This document shows, in pieces, positions 7,236-19,409 of a DNA stretch of 64,000 nt (position 1 is its first letter; every line of letters begins with the position of its first letter). The notes under the pieces were generated by a model, which searched no databases, had not been told where the DNA came from, and saw only the letters and a program-made list of their open reading frames with translations. Origin of the DNA: Rhodococcus sp. P1Y (GTDB taxonomy: Bacteria > Actinomycetota > Actinomycetes > Mycobacteriales > Mycobacteriaceae); assembly GCF_003641205.1 (NCBI RefSeq), contig NZ_CP032762.1, positions 2,294,001 through 2,358,000 on the forward strand, given 5' to 3'. The translations under genes were made by a program, and so were the position numbers.

Positions 7236-8270
7236 TCACCCAGGATTGCCTTGGTTCGTGCGAGTTGTTTCGAACTTCACCGGTGCTCTCGCAGCGTGAG
7301 CTGGGACAAGGCAGGGGATGAGTCGGACGTAGGCGACCATTCCGATCAGCTCCACCAGTGTCTGCGTCACCACGACCACGGCAGCAAGAGACAGTGCTGG
7401 TGGCAGCGCGAGCGCCAGCGGCAGAACGACCAACGAATTTCGGGTGGCACCGGAGAAGATCAAGGCCCGAGCGTCCGGGACGTCCAGGCGGGTCACTCTG
7501 GCCGTCGCCCATCCGACAACCGCCATGATGACCAGGAACGCGACGAAGATCGGCACCGCGGCAAACAGCTGGGAGCCTTCGGAGCGGACTGCGTCGATCT
7601 GCGACGCCACGACGACGGCAAGAGTGGCCATCATGACCGGCACCATCGCCGCGGCCATCACATCCATGATCTGGGTGCCGATACGCCGACGACGCGCAAG
7701 TGCTTGCGTCAGGGCCGCCAACACCAGAGGAACAACGATCAACAGCACGAACGCTTCGACGAACGGTGCAATGTCGATGATCTCCACCAGCTCGGACCCG
7801 ACGAACAACCACAGGTAGAGCGGCAGGAACGCGATCTGCAACAACATCAACAGCGGCGCGCTCGCGAGGAGCCGTTCCGACGCTGCACCGGCCAACCCAC
7901 TGAAGACGATGACGTAGTCGATGCAGGGAGCCAACAACACCAACAGCACACCGACGAGTACCGCCTGATCAGCAGCAACGAACCGGGTCAGAGCGAATAC
8001 GACGATTGGAACGAGCACGAAATTCAGTACTACGACGCTGAGCAAGAATGTGCCGTCGCGCAGCGATGCGCCGATGGCGGAGAACGGAACCGCGAGGAAC
8101 GTAGCGTAGAGCAACACGATCAGTACCGGATTGATAGCAATCTCGAACGCATGCGCCGACGACGGCGCACCCAAACCGACACCGCCACCGATGAGCAGGG
8201 CCAGCAGGTAGAGCGGGATCTGGAACTTCTCCAGCCACGCCACCACCGAGGTGGTGCTCGATATGTTCAT
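7236..8270 (-). CDS. Arsenic-resistance-type permease (ACR3/BASS superfamily)
   Basis: The 344-residue membrane protein has about ten helices and the segment LLAPCIDYVIVFSGLAG, which matches the Cys-containing helix of ACR3-type arsenite exporters. It also carries GATRNSLVVLPLALALP near residue 275, typical of the bile-acid/sodium symporter fold. The ATG at 8270 overlaps the stop of the MerR gene (ATGA), so expression is translationally coupled to a metal-type regulator. No arsenate reductase or ArsR lies nearby, so arsenite is a likely but unproven substrate. Confidence 0.72.
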   Translation of the reverse strand: MNISSTTSVVAWLEKFQIPLYLLALLIGGGVGLGAPSSAHAFEIAINPVLIVLLYATFLAVPFSAIGASLRDGTFLLSVVVLNFVLVPIVVFALTRFVAADQAVLVGVLLVLLAPCIDYVIVFSGLAGAASERLLASAPLLMLLQIAFLPLYLWLFVGSELVEIIDIAPFVEAFVLLIVVPLVLAALTQALARRRRIGTQIMDVMAAAMVPVMMATLAVVVASQIDAVRSEGSQLFAAVPIFVAFLVIMAVVGWATARVTRLDVPDARALIFSGATRNSLVVLPLALALPPALSLAAVVVVTQTLVELIGMVAYVRLIPCLVPAHAARAPVKFETTRTNQGNPG

Positions 8271-10817: not shown

Positions 10818-10848
10818 TGTTTTCTCCTCATATTGTTTTCTCCTCATA
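10817..10848 (-). repeat. 16-bp tandem duplication carrying a ribosome site
   Basis: TATGAGGAGAAAACAA occurs twice head to tail (10848-10833 and 10832-10817), covering the crcB2 stop codon, two GAGGAG ribosome sites and up to the usp start ATG. It duplicates the initiation signal. Confidence 0.85.
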
Positions 10849-11209
10849 CGGAAGCCAGGACGAGACCGGCACCGCCGGCGACGACAGTCACCAGCAGGGT
10901 GCCGACCGCGTTCAACACGCCAGCGATGTACTTCTGACGTTGGATCAGCCGCACCGTCTCGAAACTGGCGGTGCTGAAGGTGGTGTACCCGCCGCAGAAA
11001 CCGATGCCCACGATCAGCTGAAGTTCCTGGGGTAGTCCGTGGAAAAGGATCAGTCCGGTGACGAATCCGAGGAGCAGTGATCCGGTCACGTTGATGATCG
11101 CTGTCGCCCAGGGAAAATCCGACGCCCGGCGGTGCCTGATGGCCCCGTCGAGCACAAAACGGACGATCGCCCCTGCACTGCCCGCGCAGGCGATCCAGAG
11201 TGTCGTCAT
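10844..11209 (-). CDS. crcB2: Fluoride channel subunit CrcB/Fluc (second copy)
   Basis: The 121-residue, four-helix protein carries Fluc signatures: GAIVRF near the start, INVTGSLLLGFVTG with the pore Asn, and GFCGGYTTFSTASFE with the central sodium-site and phenylalanine-box region. Actinobacterial Fluc channels are often heterodimers encoded by paired genes. Its ATG overlaps the crcB1 stop (ATGA) and its stop overlaps a possible upstream start of the universal stress gene. Expression is probably set by the riboswitch before crcB1. Confidence 0.9.
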   Translation of the reverse strand: MTTLWIACAGSAGAIVRFVLDGAIRHRRASDFPWATAIINVTGSLLLGFVTGLILFHGLPQELQLIVGIGFCGGYTTFSTASFETVRLIQRQKYIAGVLNAVGTLLVTVVAGGAGLVLASV

Positions 11210-11691
11210 TGTGTTGCCTCCGCGGGCCGTGTCCGCAGTCGCGCGGCGATCGCGATTCCGGCGGTGGTGGCGACCAGACCCACCAGTACGGTGCCGGCCG
11301 CGTAGCTGCCGGCGGCCCACCACTGATGGCTGCGCAGAAACAGATCGGTATCGACGGCCAGTGTGCTGTAGGTAGTGAACGAACCGAGCATCCCGGTGCC
11401 CACCAACAGCCGGACCCGCTGCCGCCACCCTGTGTCCGGGCCCAGGCGAGCCAATCCCTCCAGCAGCATTCCGAGCAGGAACGCCCCGACGATGTTGATA
11501 GCGAAGGTCGTCACCGGCCAGCCACTCGCGGCAGAGGAACACCACAGTCCGAGTTGGTATCGGAGCGGGGCCCCGACCAATCCACCGACACCGACGGCGG
11601 CGATCGCGGACGCTCGCGCATGCAGCGGGCTTGGGGGCGCACTGTCGGGATCGACCGGTAGGGTCGGATTCGGGTCGTGATGGCCGTTCAT
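11206..11691 (-). CDS. crcB1: Fluoride channel subunit CrcB/Fluc (first copy)
   Basis: The 161-residue protein has a 28-residue Pro/Asp-rich N-terminal extension, then the Fluc fold: VGAPLRYQLG, INIVGAFLLGMLL and GMLGSFTTYSTLAVDT. It pairs with crcB2 and exports fluoride passively across the membrane. The ATG at 11691 follows a strong GGAAGGAG site. The whole unit lies directly behind a fluoride riboswitch, which confirms the role. Confidence 0.92.
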   Translation of the reverse strand: MNGHHDPNPTLPVDPDSAPPSPLHARASAIAAVGVGGLVGAPLRYQLGLWCSSAASGWPVTTFAINIVGAFLLGMLLEGLARLGPDTGWRQRVRLLVGTGMLGSFTTYSTLAVDTDLFLRSHQWWAAGSYAAGTVLVGLVATTAGIAIAARLRTRPAEATQ

Positions 11692-11714
11692 GGACAGACT
11701 CCTTCCACTCAGGG

Positions 11715-11792
11715 AAAGGAGCCATCAGCCCCAGGGTTGGGGCGGTTCAGACAACCCCCTACGGGGCGGTCTCGGCGGAGATCCATCGCCGG
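11715..11792 (-). promoter_or_regulatory. Fluoride riboswitch (crcB RNA)
   Basis: Read on the minus strand the segment starts GGCGATGG at 11790-11783, continues with a CCGCC stem strand, a variable GC-rich hairpin, and ends GGCTGATGGCTCC at 11730-11718. These are the conserved GGCGATGG...GCTGATG.CTCC blocks and pseudoknot partners of the crcB-motif RNA. The closing stem is GGAT/CTCC-rich and the crcB1 ribosome site follows about 15 bases later. Fluoride binding is expected to switch on crcB1-crcB2. Confidence 0.88.
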
Positions 11793-11797
11793 ACACC

Positions 11798-11825
11798 ACT
11801 ATAGCCTGACCAGGGATCGACCCAA
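11798..11825 (-). promoter_or_regulatory. Promoter of the fluoride-responsive operon
   Basis: On the minus strand TATAGT (11803-11798) acts as the -10 element and TTGGGT (11825-11820) as a weak -35, 16 bases apart. The start site would be near 11791, matching the first bases of the riboswitch aptamer. Confidence 0.6.
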
Positions 11826-16632: not shown

Positions 16633-16708
16633 GGGGCTGTGGCGCAGTTGGTAGCGCGTCTCGTTCGCATCGAGAAGGTCAGGGGTTCGATTCCCCTCAG
16701 CTCCACCA
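16633..16708 (+). tRNA. tRNA-Ala(CGC)
   Basis: A complete cloverleaf: acceptor GGGGCTG/CAGCTCC with a G3-T70 wobble pair (the alanine identity element), D-stem GCGC/GCGC, anticodon stem TCTCG/CGAGA with loop TTCGCAT (anticodon CGC, reading GCG), T-stem AGGGG/CCCCT with TTCGATT loop, and an encoded ACCA end at 16705-16708. Confidence 0.97.
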
Positions 16709-16965
16709 CCGGGAACCGACCGTCTGTGAATCGGTACCGTACGCGCGATCTCGCGAATCGTATTTAGTGATCATTCCTCCGAAATCGGACATTTCCCTAT
16801 TGATCCCATTTCCGGCGGCGTAACCCGGCTATTCGCCGAATTAAATCCAATTGTCATTGCGGCCAGTATTTTACGATTTGACGGTTGCAATTTCATTTCA
16901 ATGTTGCGGTATGGTCGTGCGCGTTCATGAAATTCCGGGGAATTGAATGCACGGAGGCTTTACGC

Positions 16966-17802
16966 ATGCTCGAACTGTCGGTGGTAATCCCAGTTCTGGA
17001 CGAGGTGGATTACCTTGGTCCCTGCCTCGATCATCTACTGGACCAAGAAGGCGATATCGACGAGATCATCGTCGTCGACAACGGCTCGAGCGATGGAACC
17101 TGCGAGCTCGTCGAGAGTTATCGAGAGCGCACCGACAAAATCGTACTCATTCACGAGGCCAAGCGCGGTGTCGTCCATGCGCGAAATGCCGGTTTCGAAC
17201 GCGCCAGTGGGGATGTTCTCGGCAGAATCGACGCGGATACCAGGGTTCGCCCGGGATGGGCGCGCTCGGTGAAGAGCTTCTTGCAGAACGATCCGTCGTA
17301 TGCGGCGGTGGCAGGCACGGCATACCTCTACGAGTCGCCCTGGGCCAGTGCGCAGCACAAGTTGCACGATCGTGAGGTTGCCCAATGGGGACCGGTGCGG
17401 AGCATGGTTGCGGCTTCGGGCAACAACTTCGCGATACGACGCTCGGCGTGGGAAGCGGTACGTGACAGCGCGAGCTGCCGGGTGGATCTACACGAGGACA
17501 TCGACTTGTCGTTGTGCCTGCGTGCGAAGGAGCTGCCGTTGGCGCAGTACACCGAAATGCGGGTCGAACTGTCTGGCAGGCGGGGAATTACCTCACCCGC
17601 CCGTTACTACTTCTACGCGCGTGCAGGTTATCGGGCATACAAGCGTCACGGCCTGGAAAGCGCGACTCTACGTCGTGTCGTCTTCGTCGACTGGCTGATG
17701 CATTCATTGCGTTGGCCCGTCTGCCGCCTAGTCGGCACGGGCGCGTCCCGACCCTTGCCTGTTCGTCAGGATCAACAGCCGCAACCCGTAACCGTCGGAT
17801 AG
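16966..17802 (+). CDS. Family-2 glycosyltransferase
   Basis: The 278-residue protein opens with SVVIPVLDEVDYLGPCL and DEIIVVDNGSSDGT, the nucleotide-sugar half of a GT-A fold. GRIDADTRVRPGW follows as the DxD metal site (about residue 85) and HEDIDLSLCLRA as the acceptor/base region (about 180). It has no clear transmembrane helix, though the C-terminal SLRWPVCRLVG may touch the membrane. The ATG at 16966 is chosen for GGAGG 8 bases upstream. The 257 bases between it and the tRNA are AT-rich and look like a promoter region. The acceptor is unknown; the neighbouring acyltransferase suggests surface glycan work. Confidence 0.82.
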   Translation: MLELSVVIPVLDEVDYLGPCLDHLLDQEGDIDEIIVVDNGSSDGTCELVESYRERTDKIVLIHEAKRGVVHARNAGFERASGDVLGRIDADTRVRPGWARSVKSFLQNDPSYAAVAGTAYLYESPWASAQHKLHDREVAQWGPVRSMVAASGNNFAIRRSAWEAVRDSASCRVDLHEDIDLSLCLRAKELPLAQYTEMRVELSGRRGITSPARYYFYARAGYRAYKRHGLESATLRRVVFVDWLMHSLRWPVCRLVGTGASRPLPVRQDQQPQPVTVG

Positions 17803-17839: not shown

Positions 17840-18400
17840 TCAGTCGAGGGAGCGCTGCTTGACCGCGGGACTGCCGAAGTAGACCGAATCGGCTTCGCAG
17901 TCTTTGGTCACCAAAGAGTTCGCCCCAACGACGCATCCGGGGCCGATGGTGACTCCCGGGAGGACCGTGGCCCCGGATCCGATCCACGACCCGGCGCCGA
18001 TGCGAACCGGTGCGCCGGTCAGCGTCCATGCTCGATGAGACGATGGCCCAACTTCGTGGGTGCTGGTCAAGATTCGGACGTGGTCGGCGATGAATACTCC
18101 ATCACCGATCTCGATATCACCGACGGTGTCGAAGTAGCAGCCGTAGTTGACGAACACTCCGTTTCCGAGAGTCAGGCGACCGGGGCCTTGAACGACGACT
18201 CCCCGGTACAGCAGGGACGGGCCCGCTGTGCGGACTCGCGCGGCGCGTAGGACGCGGCCGCGGACAATTGCGGGCACGATCGCTGAATCGGCGATTCCGA
18301 CTACCAGCGACTGGCGCATGTAGAACAGGGTCGACGTGATGTCGGTGCGGCTGATTCGTCCGAGTCCGAGACGGCCGATCCCGCGAGCGCTCAGCACCAT
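17840..18400 (-). CDS. Hexapeptide-repeat (LbetaH) acetyltransferase
   Basis: The 186-residue product is a left-handed beta-helix acyltransferase of the NodL/Maa/WbbJ type. Repeats such as GNGVFVNYGCYFDTVGDIEI, the HEVG catalytic-His region near 115, and IGAGSWIGSGATVLPGVTIG and CVVGANSLVTKDC near the end are clear. It likely O-acetylates a sugar or an alcohol. It converges on the glycosyltransferase gene with a 37-base gap. Confidence 0.82.
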   Translation of the reverse strand: MVLSARGIGRLGLGRISRTDITSTLFYMRQSLVVGIADSAIVPAIVRGRVLRAARVRTAGPSLLYRGVVVQGPGRLTLGNGVFVNYGCYFDTVGDIEIGDGVFIADHVRILTSTHEVGPSSHRAWTLTGAPVRIGAGSWIGSGATVLPGVTIGPGCVVGANSLVTKDCEADSVYFGSPAVKQRSLD

Positions 18401-18442: not shown

Positions 18443-18482
18443 TTTCAGGGCCCGATCAGCGTCAGCTGACCGGGCCCTGAAA
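18443..18482 (-). terminator. Strong hairpin after the 36-residue peptide gene
   Basis: TTTCAGGGCCCG (18443-18454) and CGGGCCCTGAAA (18471-18482) form a perfect 12-bp stem with a 16-base loop that itself contains GTCAGCTGAC. It lies 16 bases after the peptide stop on the minus strand and just before the acyltransferase start. Confidence 0.8.
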
Positions 18483-18498
18483 GCTACGAGAGCAAAAA

Positions 18499-18609
18499 TC
18501 AGTTGGCGGAGCCTGCAGACAGCAGCTGGAGGATCGGAATGTCGGAAGCGGAGCTTCCGGTGGTGCTTCCGGTCGACAGCAGGCTGGAGATGAAGGCGGC
18601 GACGTCCAT
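18499..18609 (-). CDS. 36-residue peptide of unknown function
   Basis: A short frame encodes a peptide starting MDVAAFISSLLSTGS and ending DIPILQLLSAGSAN. The support is strong for its size: AAGGAG 8 bases before the ATG, G or C in the third position of 29 of the 35 codons after the start, a good promoter 66-96 bases upstream and a perfect 12-bp terminator 16 bases downstream. The composition is Ser/Gly/Ala/Leu-rich with two short amphipathic segments around an STGSTTGSS linker, one net acidic charge pattern (two Asp, no Lys or Arg), and no signal peptide or cysteine. It is a single-gene transcript between an acyltransferase and two GyrI-like proteins. I do not recognise a family. Confidence 0.75.
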   Translation of the reverse strand: MDVAAFISSLLSTGSTTGSSASDIPILQLLSAGSAN

Positions 18610-18953
18610 TGGTGGTGCTCCTTGATTCGAGGGGTGTCTTCGACGATCAGGTCGTCTCGACGACGACCCGAAGTATTGTTACCGGACACAAGCGGTCTTT
18701 GTCTACGTTTTCGGGATCTCAGTGTGGGCGACGTCCTGTATTCGGCGGTATGTCCGGTCGTACGGTTGCTCCATCGCGATTTTGCAGGAACTCCGGTCTC
18801 CACGGGATGCTCCTGTGCGTGCATCAGGTTCCAGGTAGGCCGGTAGTCTTGCTGAGCAGTTGAAGAATCTTGAATTGATGGTCGACGTCTGCTGGGGAAA
18901 CGTCACCCCGGCCGCGGGTAGTTTTTGCGGCCCCGAGTTGTATGGAGTGGTGT
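18610..18953. other. 344-base divergent control region
   Basis: This gap separates the peptide gene (minus) from the GyrI-like pair (plus). It contains the peptide promoter at 18675-18705 and presumably the promoter of the GyrI-like operon. No other gene is evident. Confidence 0.6.
18675..18705 (-). promoter_or_regulatory. Promoter of the 36-residue peptide gene
   Basis: On the minus strand TAGACA (18705-18700) and TAACAAT (18681-18675) are 18 bases apart, a near-consensus housekeeping promoter. Transcription would begin near 18668 and give a leader of about 58 bases. Confidence 0.55.
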
Positions 18954-19409
18954 ATGACTTTCGAGATCGTCGACCTCGAAGAAACGTGGGTTGCAGGTTT
19001 GCCCGTCCGTAGTCCTAAACGCGCGTTGGGACGGTTGAACGATCCCGCGTTGGATCAGGCGTGGTCCTCGGTTCTCAAGCAGGAAACCAGTGGGCCGCTT
19101 GCGTCGATCTATACGGACTACGCACCGGGCATCGGCTCCTACAACATCCAAATCGTCGGGTACAAATGCTCGTCGCTGAGTCAGGTGGCCAGGGGTCACC
19201 TGGTGGCCAAGGTGCCGCGTGCCCGCTACGCCAAGTTCTCCGCCGTCGGGCACTTCCCTGACGTCATGGTGCGCTTGTGGCAACAGATCGAGCATGCCGA
19301 GCAACAGCAAGAAATCACCCGAATCTTCACCGCGGACTACGAGTGCTATCCGCACGCTTACAAGATCGATTTGTATCTGTCGATCGAGCAGTCGAGGCTG
19401 TCCGCGTGA
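18954..19409 (+). CDS. Stand-alone GyrI-like ligand-binding protein
   Basis: The 151-residue protein matches the GyrI-like / AraC-effector-binding fold: a FEIVDLEETWVAGLPVRSP first strand, IYTDYAPGIGSYNIQIVGY as the central strands, VPRARYAKFSAVGHFPDVM as the typical hinge, and IDLYLSIE as the last strand. There is no DNA-binding domain, so it is a free-standing ligand binder as in Cass2 or SbmC proteins. The ATG at 18954 is preceded by GGAG; an alternative ATG lies at 18942. Its stop overlaps the GTG of a second, diverged copy. Confidence 0.75.
   Translation: MTFEIVDLEETWVAGLPVRSPKRALGRLNDPALDQAWSSVLKQETSGPLASIYTDYAPGIGSYNIQIVGYKCSSLSQVARGHLVAKVPRARYAKFSAVGHFPDVMVRLWQQIEHAEQQQEITRIFTADYECYPHAYKIDLYLSIEQSRLSA

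Follow-up and report, generated by a model that had tools for sequence, protein, structure and literature searches.

A conserved 36-codon gene with its own control signals in Rhodococcoides and a possible role of its product as a leaderless outer-membrane micropeptide

The window, that is, the whole stretch of 64,000 nucleotides of Rhodococcus sp. P1Y that was analysed, contains a minus-strand frame that runs from an ATG start through 36 codons to a TGA stop, as a check of the sequence confirms. The gene is conserved and has control signals of its own (Table 1), and it is smaller than the usual size limit of annotation. The glycosyltransferase and acetyltransferase genes next to it look like a variable surface-sugar island at the tRNA; among the loci of 10 relatives, the former has relatives in G019 and G035, and the latter in G019, with pieces in G026. 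Elsewhere in the window, a fluoride riboswitch (Rfam RF01734, 36.8 bits; 11709–11799, minus strand) precedes a minus-strand CrcB-like pair (11206–11691 and within 10844–11725, assigned by eye), after which comes a universal-stress-type frame.

Table 1. Features of the micropeptide locus (positions in the window).
Feature	Position	Strand	Description	Basis
tRNA-Ala (CGC)	16633..16708	+	one border of the variable locus	
Family 2 glycosyltransferase	16885–17802	+	between tRNA-Ala and peptide	
WcaF-like acetyltransferase	17840–18400	−	between tRNA-Ala and peptide	
3′ hairpin	18443..18482	−	18-bp stem with one G-U, loop TGAC (4 nt), no U-run	
Micropeptide gene	18499..18609	−	36 aa, MDVAAFISSLLSTGSTTGSSASDIPILQLLSAGSAN	orthologues and dN/dS
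Ribosome binding site AAGGAG	18618..18623	−	8 nt before ATG	sequence
Conserved promoter block TTGTGTCCGGTAACAATAC	18673..18691	−	common to orthologues and paralogues	
−35-like TAGACA	18700..18705	−	5/6 to TTGACA, 18 nt before TAACAAT	sequence
Cass2-type effector-binding protein (PF14526)	18942..19409	+	other border of the locus, outside the cassette	

An earlier note on this DNA, made from the letters alone, had proposed a 36-residue peptide gene with private control signals at this place. The proposal is borne out: the frame is almost certainly a real gene, given its orthologues with a conserved frame, the purifying selection on its codons, and the conserved promoter block and hairpin around it. 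It is also the sole frame with AAGGAG 5–10 nt upstream among the window's 449 ATG open reading frames of 20–70 aa. In the whole genome, the pattern AAGGAG-N5-9-ATGGAY has 6 matches, and the other 5 begin longer frames. The GC content at third positions was counted correctly in the earlier note (29 of 35), yet 11% of 5000 random 36-codon stretches equal it, so that this bias alone is weak evidence for the gene. The lack of Lys, Arg and Cys, also pointed out then, is correct for the window copy, while three of four paralogues carry an Arg near the C-terminus.

When 60 relatives and the genome itself were searched in translation, nine orthologues from the same genus were obtained at E ≤ 1.6e-9 besides the window copy. 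The profile A1, built from 13 aligned rows of the family and run on all 37 genomes of the genus, finds ten orthologues at E ≤ 1e-15, the window copy included, together with four shorter paralogues of 28–32 aa. An eleventh orthologue, in G004 (L080), has a run of N inside the peptide gene, which corresponds to an assembly gap or a masked stretch. Homologues with a conserved frame in close relatives, by which the earlier note had suggested checking its proposal, are thus found, which favours the gene; with the window copy, orthologues are present in 11 of the 37 genus genomes (one N-interrupted). Counting the paralogues, a family member is present in 12 of the 37 genomes and was not found in the other 25, and the peptide is therefore no core porin. 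In 8 of the 12 carriers the searches gave a single member, which is an orthologue, and the profile gives no second member in the own genome. A paralogue lies 0.2–0.3 kb from the orthologue in G003, G021 and G026; in G003 (L075) the two flank the same tRNA-Ala gene (7925–8000), both on the strand opposite to it. The carriers of orthologues include Rhodococcoides kyotonense KB10 and three Rhodococcus sp. records, one of them metagenome-assembled, from which we infer that the window belongs to Rhodococcoides.

The family appears to be restricted to Rhodococcoides, and to a part of this genus only, within the genomes compared. In a sample of 401 genomes of the bacterial family, the profile gives no convincing member from other genera; this search scored at most 19 first-look candidates per genome and could miss very weak members. 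Three matches in other genera (E about 0.008) and one more within the genus (E 0.003–0.009 for the four) are at chance level. No relatives of the peptide were found in plasmids, phages, viral contigs, PHROGs or Pfam, the PDB sequences gave chance matches only (E 0.65 and 2), and NCBIfam has no match at E ≤ 1 for any of 13 members. None of the papers searched contains any of four short sequence strings from the peptide, and no title or abstract beginning among the listed matches on related themes describes the 36-aa gene.

The dN/dS values of the window copy against nine orthologues are 0.11–0.36, obtained from 31 aligned codons of the ten intact orthologues with the start codon left out, so that the purifying selection put forward earlier as a second check is seen. 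Among the 17 pairs listed of 45, the highest value is 0.41, and one pair consists of identical proteins. Among the ten intact orthologues, 23 of 30 third codon positions and 4 of 30 second codon positions vary. These patterns indicate that selection maintains the peptide, and, because synonymous positions vary while the amino acids are kept, the peptide rather than the RNA is its target. Residues M1, D2, T13, G14, S15, G18 and S19 are invariant in all 13 aligned members, and the strongest conservation falls in the linker, TGSxxGS, and not on the amphipathic face.

The signals upstream of the gene are shared by the family. A purine-rich site, with GGAG or AAGGGG as the minimum, occupies the ribosome-site position in 14 of 14 intact members; in the window copy it is the well-spaced AAGGAG that had already been recognized from the sequence. 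The pattern TTN7GTAWCAATAC, which was derived from the family members themselves, has 9 exact matches in the 37 genus genomes, and its reversal has none. Eight of the 9 directly precede family members, four orthologues and four paralogues, and the ninth, in G008, has no family peptide behind it; the remaining seven of the 15 members carry variants of the block at the same position. When up to 2 mismatches are allowed, the block has 92 matches in the own genome versus 67 for a reversed control, and a similar peptide was found behind none of the 29 inspected of the 91 matches besides the known one. The block marks no visible regulon.

The near-consensus promoter and the perfect 12-bp terminator of the earlier note hold in part. 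The −35-like element agrees with the consensus at all but one position and the block downstream of it is conserved in relatives, but the element itself is only loosely conserved there, TAACAAT is a poor −10, and a sigma-70 promoter scan finds nothing on either strand between 17500 and 19500. The outer stem of the 3′ hairpin is indeed a perfect 12 bp, within the longer stem, but a U-run is missing and a simple terminator scan finds nothing at the locus. Since both scans are empty, the promoter and the terminator are assigned by comparison and not by consensus.

A 61-nt piece with the hairpin folds at −38 kcal/mol (z −7.1), and all 14 intact members have a strong hairpin behind the stop codon (z −3.1 to −9.5). 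Beyond this hairpin, within ~150 bp and directed towards it, lies the tRNA-Ala gene in 7 of the loci of 10 relatives, so that the hairpin may end transcription from both sides. The 5′ stems after the promoter look conserved, with a summed score of 239.5 over 15 members against a maximum of 219.5 in 300 shuffles, but the average score is just as high in one of two control stretches, which is located 110 nt upstream; the whole-leader folds after the promoter are not significant. Judged by these elements, the 36-aa gene is a self-contained monocistronic cassette, with its own promoter block, ribosome site and hairpin.

The usual locus of the peptide is between the tRNA-Ala(CGC) and Cass2 genes. 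The same tRNA-Ala is present in 8 of the 10 relatives' loci scanned, within ~150 bp of the peptide or a paralogue in 7 of those 8, and the distance from tRNA-Ala to Cass2 is just 248–278 bp in five genomes. Elsewhere, the locus contains a glycosyltransferase, a WcaF-like acetyltransferase, an MMPL-family gene or small-transporter-like frames, the last assigned by eye. The MMPL-family gene of G010 (L071:8299–10482, minus strand; Pfam) lies directly upstream of the peptide on the same strand, between it and Cass2, and a frame similar to it occupies the same place in G003. Two genomes, G013 and G033, have the peptide at another locus, beside a GGDEF-EAL gene (identified by Pfam in G033), so that the cassette occurs at two kinds of locus. 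A tree built from the Cass2 region of 30 of the 37 genomes shows the carriers scattered in both deep clades. G035, which has the peptide, and G024, which gives no match, are close neighbours on this tree, and the tRNA-Ala is absent from G024 within the 8 kb examined.

Two Cass2-type proteins (PF14526) and an ScbR-family regulator (NF041196, 157 bits versus a cut-off of 150) adjoin the peptide, the latter at a distance of 1.4 kb, in agreement with the two ligand-binding proteins and the ScbR-type receptor named in the earlier note. The functional link that such a neighbourhood might imply is not upheld. Every one of the 37 genus genomes has Cass2, whereas 12 have the peptide family, and the neighbourhood is therefore no evidence that the peptide is functionally linked to Cass2 or ScbR; in addition, G013 and G033 carry the peptide at the other locus.

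As to the product itself, AlphaFold2 predicts helices at residues 3–13 and 26–34 with a linker between them, at a mean pLDDT of only 64, and this low-confidence model matches no fold in the PDB. The hydrophobic moment of residues 2–12 is reached by 0.6–4.7% of shuffles for four orthologues and by 4.1–6.6% for three paralogues, while the same test shows no amphipathicity for residues 22–31. By eye, the peptide has no hydrophobic stretch with the length of a membrane span, and none of 13 family members has a Lys or Arg in its N-terminal part, which leaves the suggestion of a Sec-type signal peptide unsupported. Among the roles suggested in the earlier note, that of a surface-active or surface peptide fits best, and its overall interpretation is partly supported.

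We propose, with a probability of roughly 0.4, that the product is a leaderless micropeptide of the mycolic-acid outer membrane, built and working like PorA/PorH and perhaps O-mycoloylated. The proposal is based on the PorA-like plan, on the linker of the O-mycoloylation type and on the nearby paralogue in three carriers; the MMPL-family gene directly upstream in G010, with the similar frame in G003, also speaks for it. Against it count the missing sequence relation to PorA/PorH in the curated models, the low-confidence structure model, the residues 22–31 that are not amphipathic, the MspA-type porins of Rhodococcus and the 25 genus genomes that gave no member. The gene's own promoter and good ribosome site would allow a small leaderless peptide to be made, which would leave the cell without a Sec signal. 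Its amphipathic helix (3–13) would be joined through the flexible, invariant T-G-S-x-x-G-S linker to a second short helix (26–34). One of the cell's mycoloyltransferases would then O-mycoloylate the linker serines and in this way anchor the peptide. The peptide would form oligomers, which in three genomes would include its sister peptide. The esterase family PF00756, which includes mycoloyltransferases, has 14 matching places in the genome. According to the available text of one study, O-mycoloylation modifies Ser and, to a lesser degree, Thr, and its sites lie in flexible stretches rich in Ser, Gly and Ala, where they often cluster (PMC11066868). A leaderless short peptide with a Ser-rich flexible segment, as indicated here by the sequence and the low-confidence model, has this feature of the O-mycoloylated kind.

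We have also considered a peptide that is secreted but not anchored, i.e., an amphipathic anionic peptide acting outside the cell as a surfactant, by aggregation or in an amyloid-like form, in the manner of phenol-soluble modulins. Such a peptide would likewise show no signal peptide, an amphipathic first helix and a Ser/Gly/Thr-rich middle, and the MMPL-family gene that adjoins it in G010, with the similar frame in G003, speaks in its favour. However, a neighbour of this type is seen at only 2 of the loci examined, and the peak of conservation in the linker rather than on the amphipathic face also speaks against this role, which we regard as unlikely. Self-contained control signals and strong constraint would also be expected of an intracellular regulatory micropeptide that binds the membrane or a protein partner. 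This explanation is quite unlikely, as no constant neighbour offers itself as the partner, G013 and G033 have the peptide in different surroundings, and by eye a membrane-spanning hydrophobic stretch is lacking.

A peptide signal or the precursor of a modified peptide (a quorum signal or RiPP), tied to the ScbR and Cass2 neighbours, would be consistent with the conserved N-terminal part, the more variable C-terminal tail and the nearby ScbR-family receptor. It is nevertheless improbable in view of the unequal distributions of Cass2 and the peptide family; ScbR receptors, moreover, bind butyrolactones, and Pfam identifies RiPP enzymes in none of 8 neighbour proteins (5 from the window, 3 from relatives). 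Likewise improbable is a small hydrophobic toxin of a type I toxin–antitoxin system, or a dual-function small RNA, to which the short gene, the strong 3′ hairpin and the patchy distribution could point. The pattern of synonymous variation argues against it, as do the lack, at the locus, of any Rfam match that reaches the gathering score and, in the region scanned, of a sigma-70-like promoter. Type I toxins usually have basic residues and a membrane-spanning stretch, and the peptide has neither. Finally, a chance reading frame, in whose favour the weakness of the third-position bias could be cited, is refuted by the orthologues, the paralogues, the dN/dS values, the conserved promoter block and the hairpin.

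The outer-membrane reading can be extended to a Rhodococcoides class of acylated outer-membrane micropeptides of 28–39 aa, shorter than the PorA/PorH sequences compared and of independent origin, which would be carried as a promoter–gene–terminator cassette at different loci and patchily gained and lost because surface exposure makes them a phage target. We consider this wider proposal doubtful. Phage Cog requires ProtX and PorA to infect C. glutamicum efficiently, as given in the accessible part of PMC9671496, and patchy surface micropeptides could therefore bear on phage host range. If true, the existence of a separate family with a comparable design in another genus would point to a general membrane-crossing route, and would offer a natural substrate of 28–39 residues for defining the signal. 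Even without the envelope reading, the gene is a clean case of a conserved gene below the annotation size limit.

It remains to compare the family with the known envelope systems, as far as the cited papers were accessible. Leaderless outer-membrane micropeptides have been studied in Corynebacterium, where their route across the plasma membrane is described as unclear (PMC12632848), and the accessible text on O-mycoloylation likewise describes it in Corynebacterium and not in the present genus. PorA has 45 aa and PorH 57 aa, and a signal sequence is absent (PMC12632848, PMC11927696). In the model of PorA, the acylated Ser15 is located in a short linker with a helix on either side (PMC11927696), and for a related small porin the predicted structure is an amphipathic helix (PMC5944148).

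Membership of the PorA or PorH family was considered and rejected, because the NCBIfam models fail and the profile comparisons give no firm relationship. The models NF033925, NF033938 and NF033937 match none of 13 members, although they recognize the C. glutamicum controls: PorA matches NF033925 at E 7.2e-24, and PorH scores above the cut-off of NF033938 and below that of NF033937. For PorA, the hhalign probability is 0.1% and the BLASTP E value 8.3; against C. glutamicum PorA alone, 62 of 500 shuffles in local and 34 of 500 in semiglobal alignment are as good, and against 7 PorA-like sequences the family has z −0.17, with 523 of 1000 shuffles as good. For PorH, the hhalign probability is 0.4%. 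A narrow PorH profile looks suggestive at z 3.9, with 9 of 3000 shuffles as good (1 of 500 at first look, 10 of 1000 without the first three columns, 85 of 500 with reversed PorH), and the 60 of 100 unrelated window frames that were tried reached z 2.6 at most; a broader PorH profile gives z 1.85 (48 of 1000). In one search the PorH profile gives nothing from this genus at E ≤ 0.05, and in another, on the 37 genus genomes, it gives three matches at E 0.28–0.71. In the genus g24 (L122–L128, L130, L131), which its PorH matches suggest to be Corynebacterium, PorH-like genes are seen down to 43–44 aa, as two close copies in two genomes, with varied PorA-like frames downstream, several of which carry LSSTG/LSGDG-type sites; this PorH-like set is broader than the sequences in alignment A3.

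Other known systems share single traits with the peptide. Rhodococcus has MspA-type porins, for which a location in the mycomembrane would be a possible common point; they are of unrelated design, those of R. ruber having 213–267 aa and a signal peptide in the accessible part of PMC9233653. The peptide is set apart from phenol-soluble modulins by its Ser/Thr/Gly linker, which is its most conserved part, and by having no Lys. These modulins are of similar size, without a signal peptide and with an amphipathic helix.

The peptide most resembles PorA/PorH, in design and not in sequence. The differences are that NCBIfam, hhalign and the wider shuffle test give no sequence relationship, that the family has 28–39 aa versus 40 or more for the PorA/PorH-like sequences compared, that most carriers have a single member, and that it belongs to a different genus and is known from sequence. 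Like PorA, PorH and ProtX (the last by description only), the family members are very short and leaderless and often start with M-D/E; as in several PorH-like genes, AAGGAG precedes the start; and, as in the PorH–PorA pair, two sister genes sometimes lie close together. The predicted arrangement of helix, linker and helix, with Ser and Gly in the linker, is that of PorA.
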